Part shown: one piece after another, positions 1 to 23,046 of the stretch
How positions within the stretch are numbered: position 1 is the first letter of the stretch
How the letters are laid out: every line of letters starts with the position of its first letter
Assembly: GCF_014696385.1 (NCBI RefSeq)
Contig: NZ_JACJQB010000037.1
Location: 1 to 34,186 of the forward strand
Origin: Pseudanabaena mucicola FACHB-723
GTDB taxonomy: Bacteria; Cyanobacteriota; Cyanobacteriia; Pseudanabaenales; Pseudanabaenaceae
DNA length: 34,186 nucleotides
Direction of reading: 5' to 3'
Translations under genes and position numbers: made by a program
The notes under the pieces: model-generated
Databases searched by the model: none
Told to the model about the DNA's origin: nothing
Seen by the model: only the letters and a program-made list of their open reading frames with translations

Positions 1-100
1 AGTGGCTCAATTAGTCTCACAGTAATTAGTTCGGATATGGTGATTCTTAGAATCTTCCCATTAGTTCGGATATGTGTAAATAATTCTGCATGGCTACTTA
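1..100. mobile_element. Terminal part of an insertion element (runs off the window)
   Basis: Read on the minus strand from 100, the sequence starts TAAGTAGCCATGCAGAATTA and continues TTTACACATA. This closely resembles the ends of the palindromic elements at 9806-9905, 12062-12163 and 16914-17017. The tnpB reading frame at 98-232 loses its expected sequence exactly where this begins. I infer that an element ends at about 100, extends left out of the window and interrupted tnpB. No transposase is visible in these 100 bases. Confidence 0.4.
25..74. repeat. Pair of 15-bp direct repeats
   Basis: The 15-mer attagttcggatatg occurs at 25-39 and again at 60-74, so the copies are 35 bp apart start to start. 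Both lie in the terminal part of the putative insertion element. They could be subterminal transposase-binding repeats or an old duplication. Their role is unknown. Confidence 0.6.
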
Positions 101-232
101 TCTGTCAGTGCCACGATTATCTATCCAATACCTCAAAGCCTTATTACGACAAAACAGAGCGGTACGGATAGCTTCGTCAATGAGGTTGTACTGCTCTGTT
201 TTGCCTTTTAGTTTTGCTTCGAGAACTAACAT
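98..232 (-). pseudogene. N-terminal fragment of a TnpB (IS200/IS605-type OrfB) gene
   Basis: From ATG at 232 the minus strand encodes 44 residues beginning MLVLEAKLKGKTEQYNLIDE and going on through AIRTALFCRNKALRYWIDN, then stops at 98-100. This is the typical start of cyanobacterial TnpB proteins of the IS200/IS605/IS1341 group, which are RNA-guided nucleases of about 400 residues. Only the first tenth is present: the zinc finger and the RuvC-like catalytic residues are missing. The stop lies inside sequence that looks like the end of another element, so the gene was probably cut by insertion. It cannot make a working protein. The family call rests on recognised sequence. Confidence 0.75.
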
Positions 233-9747: not shown

Positions 9748-9805
9748 CCAGTGGATTATTTTGTAGTAAGGTTAGAGCCATTGCAAATACGATCTCACAA
9801 ATAAC

Positions 9806-9905
9806 GTAACTAAGCACAATTAAATGTAAAACTCTAAAACCTGTGACGCACGCTGCGCGTGCGTCACAGGTTTTAGCTCTGGGTTTTAATTGTGCCTAGC
9901 TACTT
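9806..9905. repeat. Palindromic MITE-like element, copy 1
   Basis: This is an element of about 100 bp whose core is a perfect 20-bp stem (9834-9853 and 9857-9876) around a tgc loop. The right end, read inward, is TAAGTAGCTAGGCACAATTA followed by AAACCCAGAGC. The left end (ACTAAGCACAATTAAATG) is of a different type. It matches copy 2 in reverse orientation. It lies between purF and the membrane-protein gene. Confidence 0.75.
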
Positions 9906-9948
9906 ATGATGTTGGTCTTAAAGTCTAAATTTAGGAGGCTTACAATTT

Positions 9949-10626
9949 ATGGAAGCAAGTAAAGACGAGCAACTAAGTTTGCTCATGCAGAGAGATTACT
10001 CAATTGATTTCAGTAAATATTTTCGCAAGGGCTGGGAAATATTTCAGGCTAATTTCGTTCAAATTGGTGGTTTCTTCTTACTCAGCATTGTGATTAACTT
10101 TGCGGTTAATTTTGTGCCTGTGATTGGTCAGATTGCCTCTAGTGTGATCAATGCGCCCCTAGCTGCTGGTTACACATTTGTGATCCTCGCAATTTTAAGG
10201 GGCAAGTCTTTTACGTTTAATGATTTCTTTCAGGGATTAACCAACAAATATTTCCTACAGCTATTCTTGCTTTCCCTTGTGGGTGGACTATTAACTGCTG
10301 TAGGCATGATTCTCTTAATTCTGCCTGGTATTTATCTTGCGGTTTCCTATGTGTTTGCAATTCAGTTTGCCATTGATTGGGACTTGGAATTTTTTCAGGC
10401 TTTAGAAACAAGTCGTAAGTTTGTGACAAAGCAATGGCTCCAAGTATTTGTTCTGATGCTATTGCTGGTGTTGTTGAATATTGCAGGTTTAATTGCGTTG
10501 GGTGTTGGTATTTTGGTGACAGCACCGTTGAGTCTATGTATTGTGATCTGTGTATATGACGATATTGCTGGCAATCTAGATAATGGAGCCATCAGAGGAT
10601 CTGGAGGATCTATCGGAGATTTCTAA
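9949..10626 (+). CDS. Polytopic membrane protein (DUF975/YciC-like), function unknown
   Basis: A soluble N-terminus of about 30 residues (DYSIDFSKYFRKGWEIFQAN) leads into about five or six hydrophobic segments, roughly at residues 34-55, 63-85, 100-125, 125-145, 160-185 and 185-205. The pattern of an amphipathic 'KGWEIFQANF' helix followed by LPGIYLAVSYVFA, with bulky loops, resembles DUF975/glycerophosphodiester-phosphodiesterase-membrane-domain proteins. No enzymatic motif is seen. The start is fixed by a perfect AGGAGG at 9933-9938, 10 bp before the ATG. The short tail GAIRGSGGSIGDF is Gly-rich. It is a single gene followed by two strong hairpins. Confidence 0.7.
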   Translation: MEASKDEQLSLLMQRDYSIDFSKYFRKGWEIFQANFVQIGGFFLLSIVINFAVNFVPVIGQIASSVINAPLAAGYTFVILAILRGKSFTFNDFFQGLTNKYFLQLFLLSLVGGLLTAVGMILLILPGIYLAVSYVFAIQFAIDWDLEFFQALETSRKFVTKQWLQVFVLMLLLVLLNIAGLIALGVGILVTAPLSLCIVICVYDDIAGNLDNGAIRGSGGSIGDF

Positions 10627-10664
10627 ATAGAGTTGCGGCGCAAAGCGTCGCAACTCTATTTTGG
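10626..10664 (+). terminator. Triloop hairpin terminator after the membrane-protein gene
   Basis: A 16-bp stem (10626-10641 and 10645-10660) closes loop aaa, with a single G·U pair at the ggc/gtc position. It begins at the stop codon and is followed by T-rich sequence. Confidence 0.7.
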
Positions 10665-10940: not shown

Positions 10941-11984
10941 ATGGATAGTACAATCAGCCTCGAGATTATTGAGGTCGTTGAACAGGCTGCGATCGCATCT
11001 TCTAAGTGGATGGGCTTGGGCAAAAAAGATGAAGCTGATGAAGCAGCCGTAGAAGCAATGCGCGAACGGATGAACAAAATTCATATGCGTGGACGCATCG
11101 TTATTGGTGAAGGCGAACGTGACGAAGCGCCCATGCTATATATCGGCGAAGAAGTTGGGATTTGTACTCAAGAAAATGCTGCCGAATTCTGCACAGTTGA
11201 AGAACTTCAAGAAATCGACATCGCGGTTGACCCTTGCGAAGGTACAAACCTCGTTGCCTACGGTCAAAATGGTTCTATGGCTGTTTTGGCAATCTCGGAG
11301 CGTGGTGGTTTGTTCCAAGCTCCCGACTTTTATATGGACAAACTAGCTGCACCTCCTGCGGCAAAGGGTCATGTTGACATCCGTAAAACCCCTACCGAAA
11401 ACCTAAAAATTCTTTCGGAATGTCTCAACCGTTCGATTGAAGAGCTAGTTGTTGTTGTGATGGATCGTCCTCGTCACAAAGCTTTGATCTCGGAAATTCG
11501 TGCGGCGGGCGCTCGTGTACGTTTGATCAGTGATGGTGACGTATCTGCGGCTATTTGCTGTGGTTTTGCTGGTACAAACATCCATGCTTTGATGGGTATT
11601 GGTGCTGCTCCTGAAGGTGTAATTTCCGCAGCAGCAATGCGTTGCTTGGGTGGACATTTCCAAGGTCGTCTAATCTACGATCCAGCCGAAGTTAATACTC
11701 CTGAAAGCGAAAAGTGGACCCGCGAAGGTAACTTGATTCGTCTTAAGGAAATGGGTATTGAAGACGGTGATAAAGTCTATGATGCTCATGAATTGGCATG
11801 TGGTAAGAATGTCTTGTTTGCTGGTTGTGGTATCACTCCTGGTACTTTGATGGAAGGCGTTCGTTTCTTCAATGGTGGTTGTCGCACCCAGTCTTTGGTT
11901 ATCTCTACTCAATCGAAGACTGCTCGTTTCGTTGACACCATTCACTTGACCAGCGATGCTCCTAAGATCATTAACCTGCGTTAA
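10941..11984 (+). CDS. glpX: Class II fructose-1,6-/sedoheptulose-1,7-bisphosphatase
   Basis: In cyanobacteria this bifunctional enzyme hydrolyses both FBP and SBP, so one protein serves the Calvin-Benson cycle and gluconeogenesis. The 347-residue sequence shows the class II metal/phosphate motifs [11 protein letters not shown] (56-66), VDPCEGTNL (96-104, the DPxEGT motif) and [10 protein letters not shown]. Cysteines 75 and 99 are at positions reported, as I recall, to take part in redox control in the Synechocystis enzyme. Length is normal. Codon use looks biased towards a highly expressed gene. hemA follows on the same strand, an arrangement also seen in other cyanobacteria, but here 300 bp with a hairpin and a palindromic element separate them. 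Confidence 0.95.
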
Positions 11985-12000
11985 TTTTTAAACATAAACA

Positions 12001-12049
12001 CTCAAAAATTAGTGGTGCGGCGCGAAGCGTTGCACCACTAATTTTTGAG
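12001..12049. terminator. 23-bp triloop hairpin after glpX
   Basis: The arms 12001-12023 and 12027-12049 (ctcaaaaattagtggtgc outermost) close loop gaa. All positions pair, two of them as G·U (gg opposite tt). It lies 17 bp after the glpX stop and ends in T-rich sequence. Confidence 0.7.
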
Positions 12050-12061
12050 GAGGGAGGGAGT

Positions 12062-12163
12062 AAGTAGCTAGGCATAATGAAAACCCAGAGCTAAAACTTG
12101 TGGCGCACGCGCAGCGTGCGCCACAAGTTTTAGGGTTTTATGTGTAATTGCGCTTAGCTACTT
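12062..12163. repeat. Palindromic MITE-like element, copy 2
   Basis: The left end TAAGTAGCTAGGCATAATGA continues AAACCCAGAGCTAAAAC, nearly identical to the right end of copy 1 read inward, so the two copies are inverted. The core is a perfect 19-bp stem (12092-12110 and 12114-12132) around gca. The right end read inward is TAAGTAGCTAAGCGCAATTA, then CACATAAAACCC. It lies between the glpX terminator and hemA. Confidence 0.8.
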
Positions 12164-12286
12164 AGTTATTTACATTAAGGAAAGTTAAGGAGTAATAAGT
12201 ACCTACTACACTGGTAGCTATCTCCTGATAAGCTCTACCAATAACATAATGATTTCCAGTCCTAAATTAAGAAACGCATTTACGAT

Positions 12287-13588
12287 ATGAATATTGCAGT
12301 TGTTGGCTTGAGTCATAAAACGGCGACTGTGGAAGTAAGGGAAAAGTTGAGCATTCCTGAAGATCGCATGGAAGCTGCGATCGCTCAGCTAATGAGCTAT
12401 CCGAATATTGAAGAAGCTGCCATTTTAAGTACCTGCAACCGCTTAGAGTTATACGTGGTCACTAGCGAGTCCGAAGGCGGCATTCGCGAAATTATGCAGT
12501 TTCTTTCGGAATTTAGCCAACTGCCGCTACAGTTTCTCCGTCGCTATTTGTTTATTTTGCTGCGTCAAGATGCTGTCACCCATTTGATGCGTGTGGCTTC
12601 GGGTTTAGATAGTCTTGTGCTGGGTGAAGGTCAGATTCTTGCCCAAGTCAAAAATACTCACCGTCTTGCTCAGCAGTATAACGGTGCTGGTCGAATTCTA
12701 AATCAACTTTTTAAACAAGCTTTATCGGCGGGTAAACGGGTTCGGACTGAGACGGAAATTGGTACTGGTGCAGTGTCGATCAGTTCGGCGGCTGTGGAGC
12801 TAGCGCAGATCAAATTAAAAGATTTGTCGGATAAACATGCCACGATTATCGGTGCTGGCAAAATGTCGCGCCTATTGGTTAAGCATTTAATTTCAAAAGG
12901 TGCCCAAAAAATTGCGATCGTCAATCGATCGCGATCGCGGGCTGAAACTATGCTCAAAGAATTTGAAGCTAGTGGCGCTCAATTTGACATACATCCCCTT
13001 GAGCAGATGTTTGATTGCATCGCTATTTCTGATCTAGTTTTTACCAGCACAGCTTCGACTGAAGTAATTATTAGCCGTAAGCATTTAGAAGCAATTGCTC
13101 CTAACCATAGTGGCTTGACTTTAGTGGATATTTCTGTACCACGTAATATTAGTGCGGATGTTAATGAATTAGCTAACACCAAAGCCTACAATGTAGATGA
13201 TTTGCAAGCAGTGGTTGCCGAAAATCAAGAAAGCCGTCGGCTAATGGCGATGCAAGCGGAAATTTTATTAGAAGGTTGTGTTGCTGAGTTTGATACTTGG
13301 TGGCGTTCTCTCGAAACTGTCCCTACGATTAGCAAGTTGCGCCAAAAGATGGAAATCATTCGTGAGCAGGAGATGGAGAAAGCTCTTTCTCGTCTCGGCA
13401 ATGATTTTGCGGACAAACATCAGGATGTGATTGAGAGTATGACTCGCGGGATTATTAATAAGATTTTGCATGATCCGATGGTGCAGTTACGCGCTCAGCA
13501 AGATATTGAGTCCCGCCGCAAGGCTATGCAAATGTTGCAGGTGTTATTTGATTTAGATTCACCTTCTAGTCAACTGAAAGAAGGTTAA
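12287..13588 (+). CDS. hemA: Glutamyl-tRNA reductase
   Basis: HemA reduces glutamyl-tRNA to glutamate-1-semialdehyde with NADPH, the committed step to heme, chlorophyll and bilins. The 433-residue protein shows GLSHKTA (7-13), the catalytic cysteine C50 in STCNRLELY, the [13 protein letters not shown] segment, the Rossmann site [14 protein letters not shown] for NADPH and the C-terminal dimerisation helix ending near LQVLFDL. Length is normal. It has its own 120-bp leader after the palindromic element and ends in a strong terminator, so it is probably transcribed alone. Confidence 0.97.
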
Positions 13589-13630: not shown

Positions 13631-13711
13631 GATAAACCAAGAACCCTGTATTGCCTGAGTAGCGTGCAGCACGAGACTTGGTTTTATCTTTTAACTAAGT
13701 TAAGCTACTTA
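13631..13711. repeat. Decayed copy of the palindromic element
   Basis: The right end read inward from 13711 is TAAGTAGCTTAACTTAGTTA followed by AAAGATAAAACC, matching the other copies. Outer arms gataaaccaag (13631-13641) and cttggttttatc (13677-13688) still pair, and a short cgtgcagcacg palindrome remains inside. The left terminal repeat has been lost. It lies between hemA and the Uma2 gene. Confidence 0.45.
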
Positions 13712-16094: not shown

Positions 16095-16181
16095 GATGCG
16101 CTTAATAATATTTAATTCACGTTAGGTTTAGTGAAAAAGATTCCAGAACTTTGGTGACACTTTTTAATTTAGGAGGTGAAT

Positions 16182-16916
16182 ATGGCTGATGTACAACAAT
16201 TGCAACTACTGGAGAAAGGCGTAAAAAACTGGAATCATTGGCGAAATGTACATCCAGATGTATTGATCGCTTTACAAAATGCTACCCTCAACGTTGCTGA
16301 TCTTCGCTATGCCAACTTAAGTATGGCAAATCTCGAAGGTGCGGATCTATATCACGCGAATTTGATCGAGGCTAACTTACAATATGCCAACTTAACTGGA
16401 GCTACCTTGAACGGGGCAGTTGCTACAGGTTCTCTTGATCATGCCGATCTTAGCGATGCGAATCTTTACAGTGCTATTTTTACCTTTGCGGATCTCAGTT
16501 ATAGCAATTTACAATCAGCCAATGCGATTAGTGCAAACTTTAACAGTGCTAATCTTCAAGAAGCAAATTTACAAAATATCAATGCCAGTCATGCCATATT
16601 TTGGCAAGCAAATTTGAAGGGAGCTGATTTGCGTAGCGCAATTTTTTGGAATGCCAAGTTGTACTGTGCGAATTTAGAGCGATCGCAATTACAAAATACA
16701 GATTTTAGTGGGGCGGATTTGAGTGGGGCAAATTTACGGGATGCCGATTTAAGTGGGGCAGATTTACGTAATGCGAATTTAAGTCGAGCCAATTTGGAGG
16801 GAGCAAATCTCTATAAAATATGCTGGGGGAAGAATGTTAGTGGTGGTGAGACCAATTGGAATAATGTGATTGGATTGATGTCTGCTCAAAATGTGCCTAC
16901 AGCGCTTTTGTTATAA
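16182..16916 (+). CDS. Pentapeptide-repeat protein
   Basis: From about residue 35 to 225 of 244, the protein is made of A(D/N)LxX pentapeptides (for example ANLEGADLYHANLIEANLQ and FSGADLSGANLRDADLSGAD), predicting a right-handed quadrilateral beta-helix. A short non-repeat head (MADVQQLQLLEKGVKNWNHW) and a tail (SGGETNWNNVIGLMSAQNVP) cap it. No signal peptide or membrane segment is seen. Pentapeptide proteins are abundant in cyanobacteria and mostly of unknown function; a few mimic DNA. The start is set by AGGAGG at 16171-16176, 5 bp before ATG 16182. A GTG at 16176 is too close to the ribosome site. The stop codon is shared with a palindromic repeat element. Confidence 0.9.
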   Translation: MADVQQLQLLEKGVKNWNHWRNVHPDVLIALQNATLNVADLRYANLSMANLEGADLYHANLIEANLQYANLTGATLNGAVATGSLDHADLSDANLYSAIFTFADLSYSNLQSANAISANFNSANLQEANLQNINASHAIFWQANLKGADLRSAIFWNAKLYCANLERSQLQNTDFSGADLSGANLRDADLSGADLRNANLSRANLEGANLYKICWGKNVSGGETNWNNVIGLMSAQNVPTALLL

Positions 16917-17017
16917 GTAGCTAAACATAATTAAAACCAAAGATCAGAGCGTGATTCGCACGCAAAGCGTGCGAATCACGCTTCTGGGTTTTAAGGTTAT
17001 TTATGCTGAATTACTTA
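16914..17017. repeat. Palindromic MITE-like element, copy 3
   Basis: The left end TAAGTAGCTAAACATAATTA begins at the TAA stop of the pentapeptide gene. The core is a perfect 16-bp stem (16948-16963 and 16967-16982) around aaa, with the inner sequence cgcacgc/gcgtgcg shared with copies 1 and 2 but different outer stem bases. The right end read inward is TAAGTAATTCAGCATAAATA, then ACCTTAAAACCCAGA. It is more diverged than copies 1 and 2. Confidence 0.7.
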
Positions 17018-21320: not shown

Positions 21321-21333
21321 ATAGCTCGCACTA

Positions 21334-21376
21334 AAAAGGAGTTGCGGCGCTTCGCGCCGCAACTCCTTTTGTTTTG
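21334..21376 (+). terminator. Triloop hairpin terminator
   Basis: A 17-bp perfect stem (aaaaggagttgcggcgc, 21334-21350, with its complement at 21354-21370) closes loop ttc and is followed by gttttg. It lies 13 bp after the stop of the TerB-like gene. Confidence 0.85.
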
Positions 21377-22976: not shown

Positions 22977-23003
22977 TTAATTGCATCGGGACAAATCAAA
23001 AAA

Positions 23004-23046
23004 CCAAAAGTGAGTGGCGGCGCTTCGCGCCGCCACTCACTTTTGG
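23004..23046. terminator. 20-bp triloop hairpin between convergent genes
   Basis: The arms ccaaaagtgagtggcggcgc (23004-23023) and their complement (23027-23046) close loop ttc, a perfect stem. It sits between the propeller-protein gene and the glutathione S-transferase gene. The GGCGCTTCGCGCC centre is the same as at 21346-21358. Confidence 0.8.

Follow-up and report, generated by a model that had tools for sequence, protein, structure and literature searches.

Does the motif at the left edge of this DNA mark the parent of the palindromic elements that carry the same motif further inside it? The stretch analyzed, referred to as the window, comprises 34,186 nucleotides of Pseudanabaena mucicola FACHB-723 (contig NZ_JACJQB010000037.1), and a first-pass annotation had proposed that one transposase recognizes both, the full-length parent lying just left of the window. 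We find two separate, related things with IS630-type ends. One is an insertion sequence (IS) at the left edge, termed IS-A. The other is a family of miniature inverted-repeat transposable elements (MITEs), termed MITE-1, which probably owes its spread to the trans action of a transposase from a different IS630 group, IS-C, encountered in the genus only as relics.

A terminal motif shared by the left edge and the palindromic elements

Read on the minus strand from position 100 to 81, the left edge is TAAGTAGCCATGCAGAATTA, followed by TTTACACATA. The right end of the second MITE-1 copy of the window, read on the minus strand from 12164 to 12145, is TAAGTAGCTAAGCGCAATTA, followed by CACATAAAAC. 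The letters of both ends had been quoted correctly in the first-pass annotation, and only the start coordinate of the latter, given as 12163, was off by one. With up to two mismatches, the pattern TAAGTAGCNNNGCNNAATTA matched six times in the window (0.07 matches expected; none of 100 shuffles reached six) and 198 times (95+103) across the FACHB-723 genome, compared to 12 matches (5+7) for a control pattern read backwards. Since these counts are far above those for shuffles and control, the first 20 bases are a genuine motif common to the left edge and the palindrome end. The ACACATA said to follow in both is not part of it, as this is a private change of copy 2: CACATA occurs at this place in one of the 44 MITE-1 rows scored below, and the consensus of 22 FACHB-723 copies reads AAATATAAAAC there.

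An IS630-family element at the left edge

Of the 94 contigs in the assembly, the window is contig C31, beginning at the first base of that contig. The sequence at 1-100 was found at 24 places in the FACHB-723 genome, of which 23 lie no more than two bases from a contig end, and contig C1 extends the sequence by 333 bases that code for the N-terminal part of a transposase. For the C-terminal side, a 453-base stretch that ends in TAAGTAGCTAAGCAAAATTA and codes for the C-terminal transposase part, 32 matches were obtained in the genome (29 over the full 453 bases and three partial). The C half matched DDE_3 (PF13358) with an E value of 8.1e-30 and the IS630 profile NF033545 with 111.1 bits (cut-off 100), and the N half gave 63.3 bits with the same profile and carries helix-turn-helix (HTH) domains (PF13551, PF13518, PF13384 and others). 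With a DDE transposase, an N-terminal HTH, terminal inverted repeats (in the full copy L104, 18 of 20 bases agree; FACHB-723 has ends of two types) and insertion at TA with duplication (one case), IS-A is an IS630-family element of about 1.1 kb. The motif at the left edge is the terminus of this transposase-bearing element and, as the first-pass annotation had predicted, the opposite terminus is of the TAAGTAGC type and inverted.

Residues 117-184 of a natural 331-aa IS-A protein are covered by no match in FACHB-723, which indicates that the assembly lacks the middle of IS-A. A full copy is present in Pseudanabaena sp. ULC187bin1 (97% identity over the C half), and matches at 95% were obtained in Pseudanabaena sp. 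lw0831. The C-terminal ends examined in FACHB-723 come in three versions, at most 2 of 453 bases apart, and a fourth version (L104/L280) belongs to other genomes. IS-A has probably multiplied recently, and the assembly breaks inside its copies, which accounts for the 23 recurrences at contig ends. Adjoining one IS-A copy, a different DDE transposase is represented by a duplicated fragment with a match to the IS630 profile (L215; FACHB-723 C69:8847-9356). Also, a hairpin element of about 100 bases (GGGTAAA...CCCCGTCCGCTTGCGGCGGGGTTATTCA) is seemingly inserted into a MITE-1 copy (L101:1498-1695) and into IS-A near its N-terminal end (L104, L280).

Next to IS-A, positions 101-232 (minus strand) resemble what we take to be the start of a tnpB gene; the 50-aa stub alone gave no match with any Pfam or NCBIfam family. 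The window flank was paired, across one TA, with the 33 distinct flanks lying outside C-terminal IS-A ends, of which one comes from another genome. Of these joins, three (C23, L188 and L058) are open through the 60 residues printed, and only that with contig C23 carries the frame (...YWIDNRGTDR/YDLNKF...) into OrfB domains (PF01385 and PF07282; OrfB_IS605, Cas12f1-like TNB), the other two leading into unrelated sequence. Because the frame is continuous over one TA into OrfB domains, the gap between C31 and C23 is occupied by a copy of IS-A, which lies within tnpB, at a TA. An IS630-family element thus lies immediately left of the window, where the first-pass annotation had placed a full-length element, and for this one copy the target of IS-A is TA, which is duplicated.

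The palindromic elements are IS630-type MITEs

The limits of MITE-1 are sharp, many matches ending exactly at 104 bp (12061-12164 in the window). The consensus of the 22 FACHB-723 copies has the form TAAGTAGCTAGGCATAATTAAAACCCAGAG-hairpin-GGGTTTTATATTTAATTGCGCCCAGTTACTTA, and of the 22 copies the left tip carries TA in 19 and the right tip also in 19, proportions that are favored by the choice of copies on the basis of their ends. MITE-1 occupies at least 40 distinct places in the FACHB-723 genome, some of them as partial copies (best 40 of 90 candidates scored), and among the matches listed the copies are 88-99% identical to the consensus. Both copies in the window are intergenic, and their hairpins are very stable. 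Being short multi-copy elements with fixed limits, IS630-like ends and TA tips, the palindromes are IS630-type MITEs, non-autonomous as the first-pass annotation had supposed. Two further families, MITE-2 and MITE-3, and MITEs of three distant cyanobacteria (G179, G048 and G200; L386-L394) have the same plan of IS630-type ends, an A-rich spacer and a GC-rich short-loop stem. The MITE end TAAGTAGCTAG (9887-9906 minus, 12061-12080) contains a stop codon in all three frames, so that MITE-1 on insertion immediately terminates whichever reading frame it enters; this is not so for the IS-A end at 81-100 (TAAGTAGCCAT).

The ends of MITE-1 fit the IS-C group best

Profiles over 28 bases were built from 18 distinct IS-A-type, six IS-B and nine IS-C ends, and in a leave-one-out trial 33 of 33 IS ends were assigned to their own group. 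The end-pair search in FACHB-723 covered 48 loci, with pairs in 27 and none in 21; five of the 27 remained unscored, L087, L101 and L218 because of length or nesting and L228 and L229 because they belong to other families. From relatives, rows were taken from retrieved loci only, at exactly 104 bases and with intact tips. The 44 rows scored represent 43 places (L035 and L075 are one place), 22 of them in FACHB-723 and 21 in relatives. For both ends together, IS-C was best in 44 of 44 rows, with margins of 7 to 39 bits, and neither IS-A nor IS-B in any (0/44 each). When ends were scored singly, IS-C was best for the right end in 44 rows and for the left end in 39. The proposal that the left-edge element is the parent of the palindromes, or that a single transposase serves both, therefore finds no support in any row scored.

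The ends of IS-C approximate TAAGTAG.TAGGC..AATTAAATATAA.A, to which the right end of MITE-1 is similar, and the left end of MITE-1 equals the first 20 bases of the IS-C end L279. Relics of IS-C comprise a decayed 1109-bp copy with both ends in G020 (L338), a C-terminal half with the terminus TAAGTAGCTAGGCATAATTAAATATAAAAC in G002 (L279) and N-terminal parts in G013 and G018 (L262, L315). No intact IS-C was found in 26 genomes of the genus with a query of the N-terminal 227 aa, which misses C-terminal halves. Relatives with the same kind of ends are plasmid-borne, with 73 and 63% identity, in Kovacikia minuta and Nostoc sp. ATCC 53789; in the latter, the annotated gene for an IS-C-type transposase (WP_245245942.1) is whole.

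The third group, IS-B, is represented in FACHB-723 (C75:5999-7002) and, by whole or partial copies, in several other genomes. It is the sister group of IS-C, transposase fragments of the two being 36-61% (mostly 43-55%) identical. In several genomes IS-B (L214/L254 and relatives) has two overlapping frames joining close to an A run, an arrangement suggestive of a programmed frameshift. For MITE-3, the left ends fit the C-end of IS-B best (25, 24 and 23 of 28 bases in three copies), and its right ends show 21 of 28 identities with IS-C and 19-20 of 28 with IS-B; the MITE-3 family may have a separate helper.

Distribution and age

In the genus set, 34 candidates per genome were scored, and four in a class sample of 194 genomes, so that MITE counts per genome are lower bounds. 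Within the genus, 25 of 26 genomes contain MITE-1, with none in G001. IS-A (at least 57% aa identity) was found in five genomes, all of which also have MITE-1, and 20 of the 26 contain MITE-1 and lack a match to IS-A, which likewise speaks against IS-A as the parent. In four further genomes of the genus the IS-A query matched at 28-32%, and these have IS-B. In the class sample, MITE-1 was detected in 15 genomes of the genus (FACHB-723 included) and in the distant G048, G179 and G200; it was not found in four genomes from other genera of the same family under this limit of four candidates per genome. The four G179 copies that were read, each 107 bases long, are at most one base apart and lie in unrelated flanks, from which it appears that they may have moved recently. 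The MITE-1 consensus had no match among 50,697 phage records, and the three plasmid records that matched all derive from Pseudanabaena. Given that the MITE-1 copies listed for FACHB-723 are 88-99% identical to their consensus and that the IS-A C-ends examined there show no more than 2 differences in 453 bases, the two spread in different waves.

A model for the movement of MITE-1

MITE-1 consists of two slightly different putative transposase-binding ends with TA tips and a near-perfect hairpin core. By analogy with the Tc1/mariner/IS630 elements, a transposase would bind both ends via its N-terminal HTH region, cut, and insert the element at a TA that is duplicated in the process. IS-A presumably moves itself in this way, as the one TA duplication suggests. 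MITE-1 has the ends and lacks a transposase gene, and would have been moved in trans, judging by its sequence most likely by an IS-C-type transposase. With that parent gone, most copies of MITE-1 are probably fixed and decaying. Cross-mobilization of MITE-1 by the IS-A transposase may also occur.

The hairpin core

When pairing of the core was studied for 30 copies and 19 pairs, 95.4% of the 570 cells were paired. Six pairs have changed on both sides, in 16 cells compared to a shuffle mean of 4.3 (none of 500 shuffles as high), a count that kinship of the copies can inflate. In our own tally, departures from pairing include 10 G-T and 11 A-C, and such similar numbers give no sign of selection at the RNA level. 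Palindrome correction by template switching is a described process, and either such correction of the DNA or the spread of founder subfamilies would account for the co-variation. That the core is kept palindromic by a process at the DNA level as part of how these MITEs work, be it palindrome correction or a need for an extruded hairpin in transposition, is conceivable, though doubtful. If it were true, orphan MITEs could persist after the loss of their parent and be taken over by a different IS630 transposase.

Features of the window

The coordinates of the elements are collected in Table 1. The first TAA of MITE-2 is the stop codon of the open reading frame (ORF) 16176-16916. Hairpins with similar GC-rich stems and without TAAGTAGC ends are located between long ORFs at 10625-10661, 12001-12049, 21330-21370 and 23003-23046; these stand-alone hairpins may act as terminators, or MITE cores may stem from them.

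Table 1. Mobile elements and interrupted gene in the window.
Feature	Position	Strand	Remarks
IS-A, N-terminal end, truncated by contig start	1..100	-	terminal inverted repeat 81-100; target-duplication TA 99-100
tnpB-like gene, 5' part, interrupted by IS-A at TA	101..232	-	3' part on contig C23 (L193:452-1468)
MITE-1 copy 1, 104 bp	9803..9906	-	end at 9803 decayed (AACGTAACTAAG...)
MITE-1 copy 2, 104 bp	12061..12164	+	between ORFs 10941-11984 (presumably glpX-like) and 12287-13588 (presumably hemA-like); carries private ACACATA
Lone MITE-like end TAAGTAGCTTAACTTAGTTA of probable decayed element	13692..13711	-	
MITE-2, second palindromic family	16914..17017	+	different hairpin core, same kind of ends

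Weighing the explanations

Several observations speak against IS-C as the source of the MITE-1 transposase. Only four of the 26 genomes yielded IS-C (G013, G018, G020 and, as the C-terminal half, G002), FACHB-723 not being among them; as IS-C is missing from most genomes with MITE-1, the link is made by sequence fit and relics and not by co-occurrence. The end profiles were built on few sequences, several of them close relatives, which made the leave-one-out trial easy. Taken alone, the left end of MITE-1 was best with IS-A in three and with IS-B in two of the 44 rows, and margins of plain identity over 28 bases are small, with 24 for IS-C, 20 for IS-A and 19 for IS-B at the right end, and 23 for IS-C, 22 for IS-B and 20 for IS-A at the left end. 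Also, a clean empty site for a MITE-1 copy was found nowhere among the sites tried. In 19 regions orthologous to that of copy 2, a full MITE was present in none, one showing a weak end match and 18 showing none, and divergence in these regions is too great for the site to be recognized; for two of them the glpX-side gene could not be located, and reading was confined to the 300 bases preceding hemA. At L263, the palindrome lies about 30 bases past an aligned IS-B fragment and not within it, so that no empty site was gained there. Joining of the flanks of 41 elements gave an open frame of at least 90 aa across the site in four cases, one of which (L303, MITE-3, 106 aa) is likely a real gene. 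In that case the MITE-3 copy (L303:2390-2494, in G040) lies in the possible gene, and the 106-aa frame appears when its flanks are joined over one TA.

Set against IS-C, the derivation of MITE-1 from IS-A and its movement by that element would agree with the TAAGTAGC..GC..AATTA that both share, with IS-A being by far the commonest IS630 element in the FACHB-723 genome, with 18 of 20 identical bases between the left end of MITE-1 and the C-end of IS-A, and with the presence of MITE-1 in all genomes that have IS-A. It is nevertheless improbable, and IS-A was rejected as the parent by end profiles, identity and distribution: no row prefers it over both ends together, MITE-1 is present in 20 of 26 genomes where IS-A was not found, the two spread at different times, and the likeness in ACACATA is private to copy 2. 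We also consider it unlikely that IS-B moved or still moves MITE-1. The first 17 bases of the IS-B C-end and of the left end of MITE-1 are identical, IS-B is close to IS-C in its transposase and present in FACHB-723 and several other genomes, and it gives the best fit with the left, though not the right, ends of MITE-3. The right end of MITE-1, however, fits IS-B poorly (17 and 19 of 28), and IS-B was rejected as the parent because none of the 44 rows prefers it over both ends. A reading of another kind takes the palindromes for functional hairpins, that is, terminators or mRNA-stabilizing structures, which are not mobile and resemble IS ends by coincidence. The great stability of the hairpins, the position of both window copies between genes and the co-varying core arms would suit such a function, yet sharp limits at 104 bp, TA tips and unrelated flanks are foreign to it, as are the nearly identical G179 copies in unrelated flanks, the MITE-3 copy L303 in an open frame and the excess of end-pattern matches over the control. 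As G-T departures in the core do not exceed A-C departures, an RNA function was rejected as the main explanation, and we regard it as very improbable. We therefore retain an IS-C-type transposase as the probable agent that spread MITE-1, beside an independent IS-A.

Comparison with known systems

Among the papers listed in searches on MITEs, transposases and palindromes of Pseudanabaena, judged by title or the start of the abstract, none on these elements was found. MITE-1 is a new family of MITEs, a type of mobile DNA already known, and its decayed IS630 parent group is well supported by the comparison of sequences. The scientific addition is modest; the case illustrates that an end motif common to a whole family can point to the wrong parent IS. 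Another MITE in cyanobacteria is reportedly Nezha, described by Zhou and colleagues in 2008, which resembles MITE-1 in being a MITE of this phylum.

ISY100 of Synechocystis, a member of the IS630/Tc1/mariner group, has a transposase with N-terminal HTH binding and a DDE-type catalytic domain that inserts at TA with duplication and, according to the parts of the study drawn on here, suffices alone in vitro (PMC2170065). IS-A is another member of this family, likened to ISY100 by its domains and TA target.

The RUP elements of S. pneumoniae, as described in the part of the report used here, are 107 bp long, with 108 intergenic copies and TA tips, and IS630-Spn1 of the same species is their proposed parent (PMC2229807). 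Compared in kind only, RUP is like MITE-1 in its size of about 100 bp, TA tips, IS630-family-like ends and, in that part of the report, no coding capacity mentioned. They differ in that the parent of RUP resides in the same species, whereas the best-fitting parent group of MITE-1 is decayed or absent and a long hairpin core dominates the element (PMC2229807).

Closest in their setting are the MITEs of Anabaena sp. 90, which in the portion of the paper considered are given as type II, with no IS in the genome that has similar ends, and this, the authors say, may imply an autonomous mechanism (PMC3542288). Compared by description, both cases concern abundant cyanobacterial MITEs without a matching IS in the genome; for MITE-1, in contrast, the relics present in sister genomes suggest that a parent has been lost. 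For MITE-1, loss of the parent is a simpler explanation than an autonomous mechanism, and other seemingly parentless MITEs of cyanobacteria might be explained in the same way, by parent relics in sister species.
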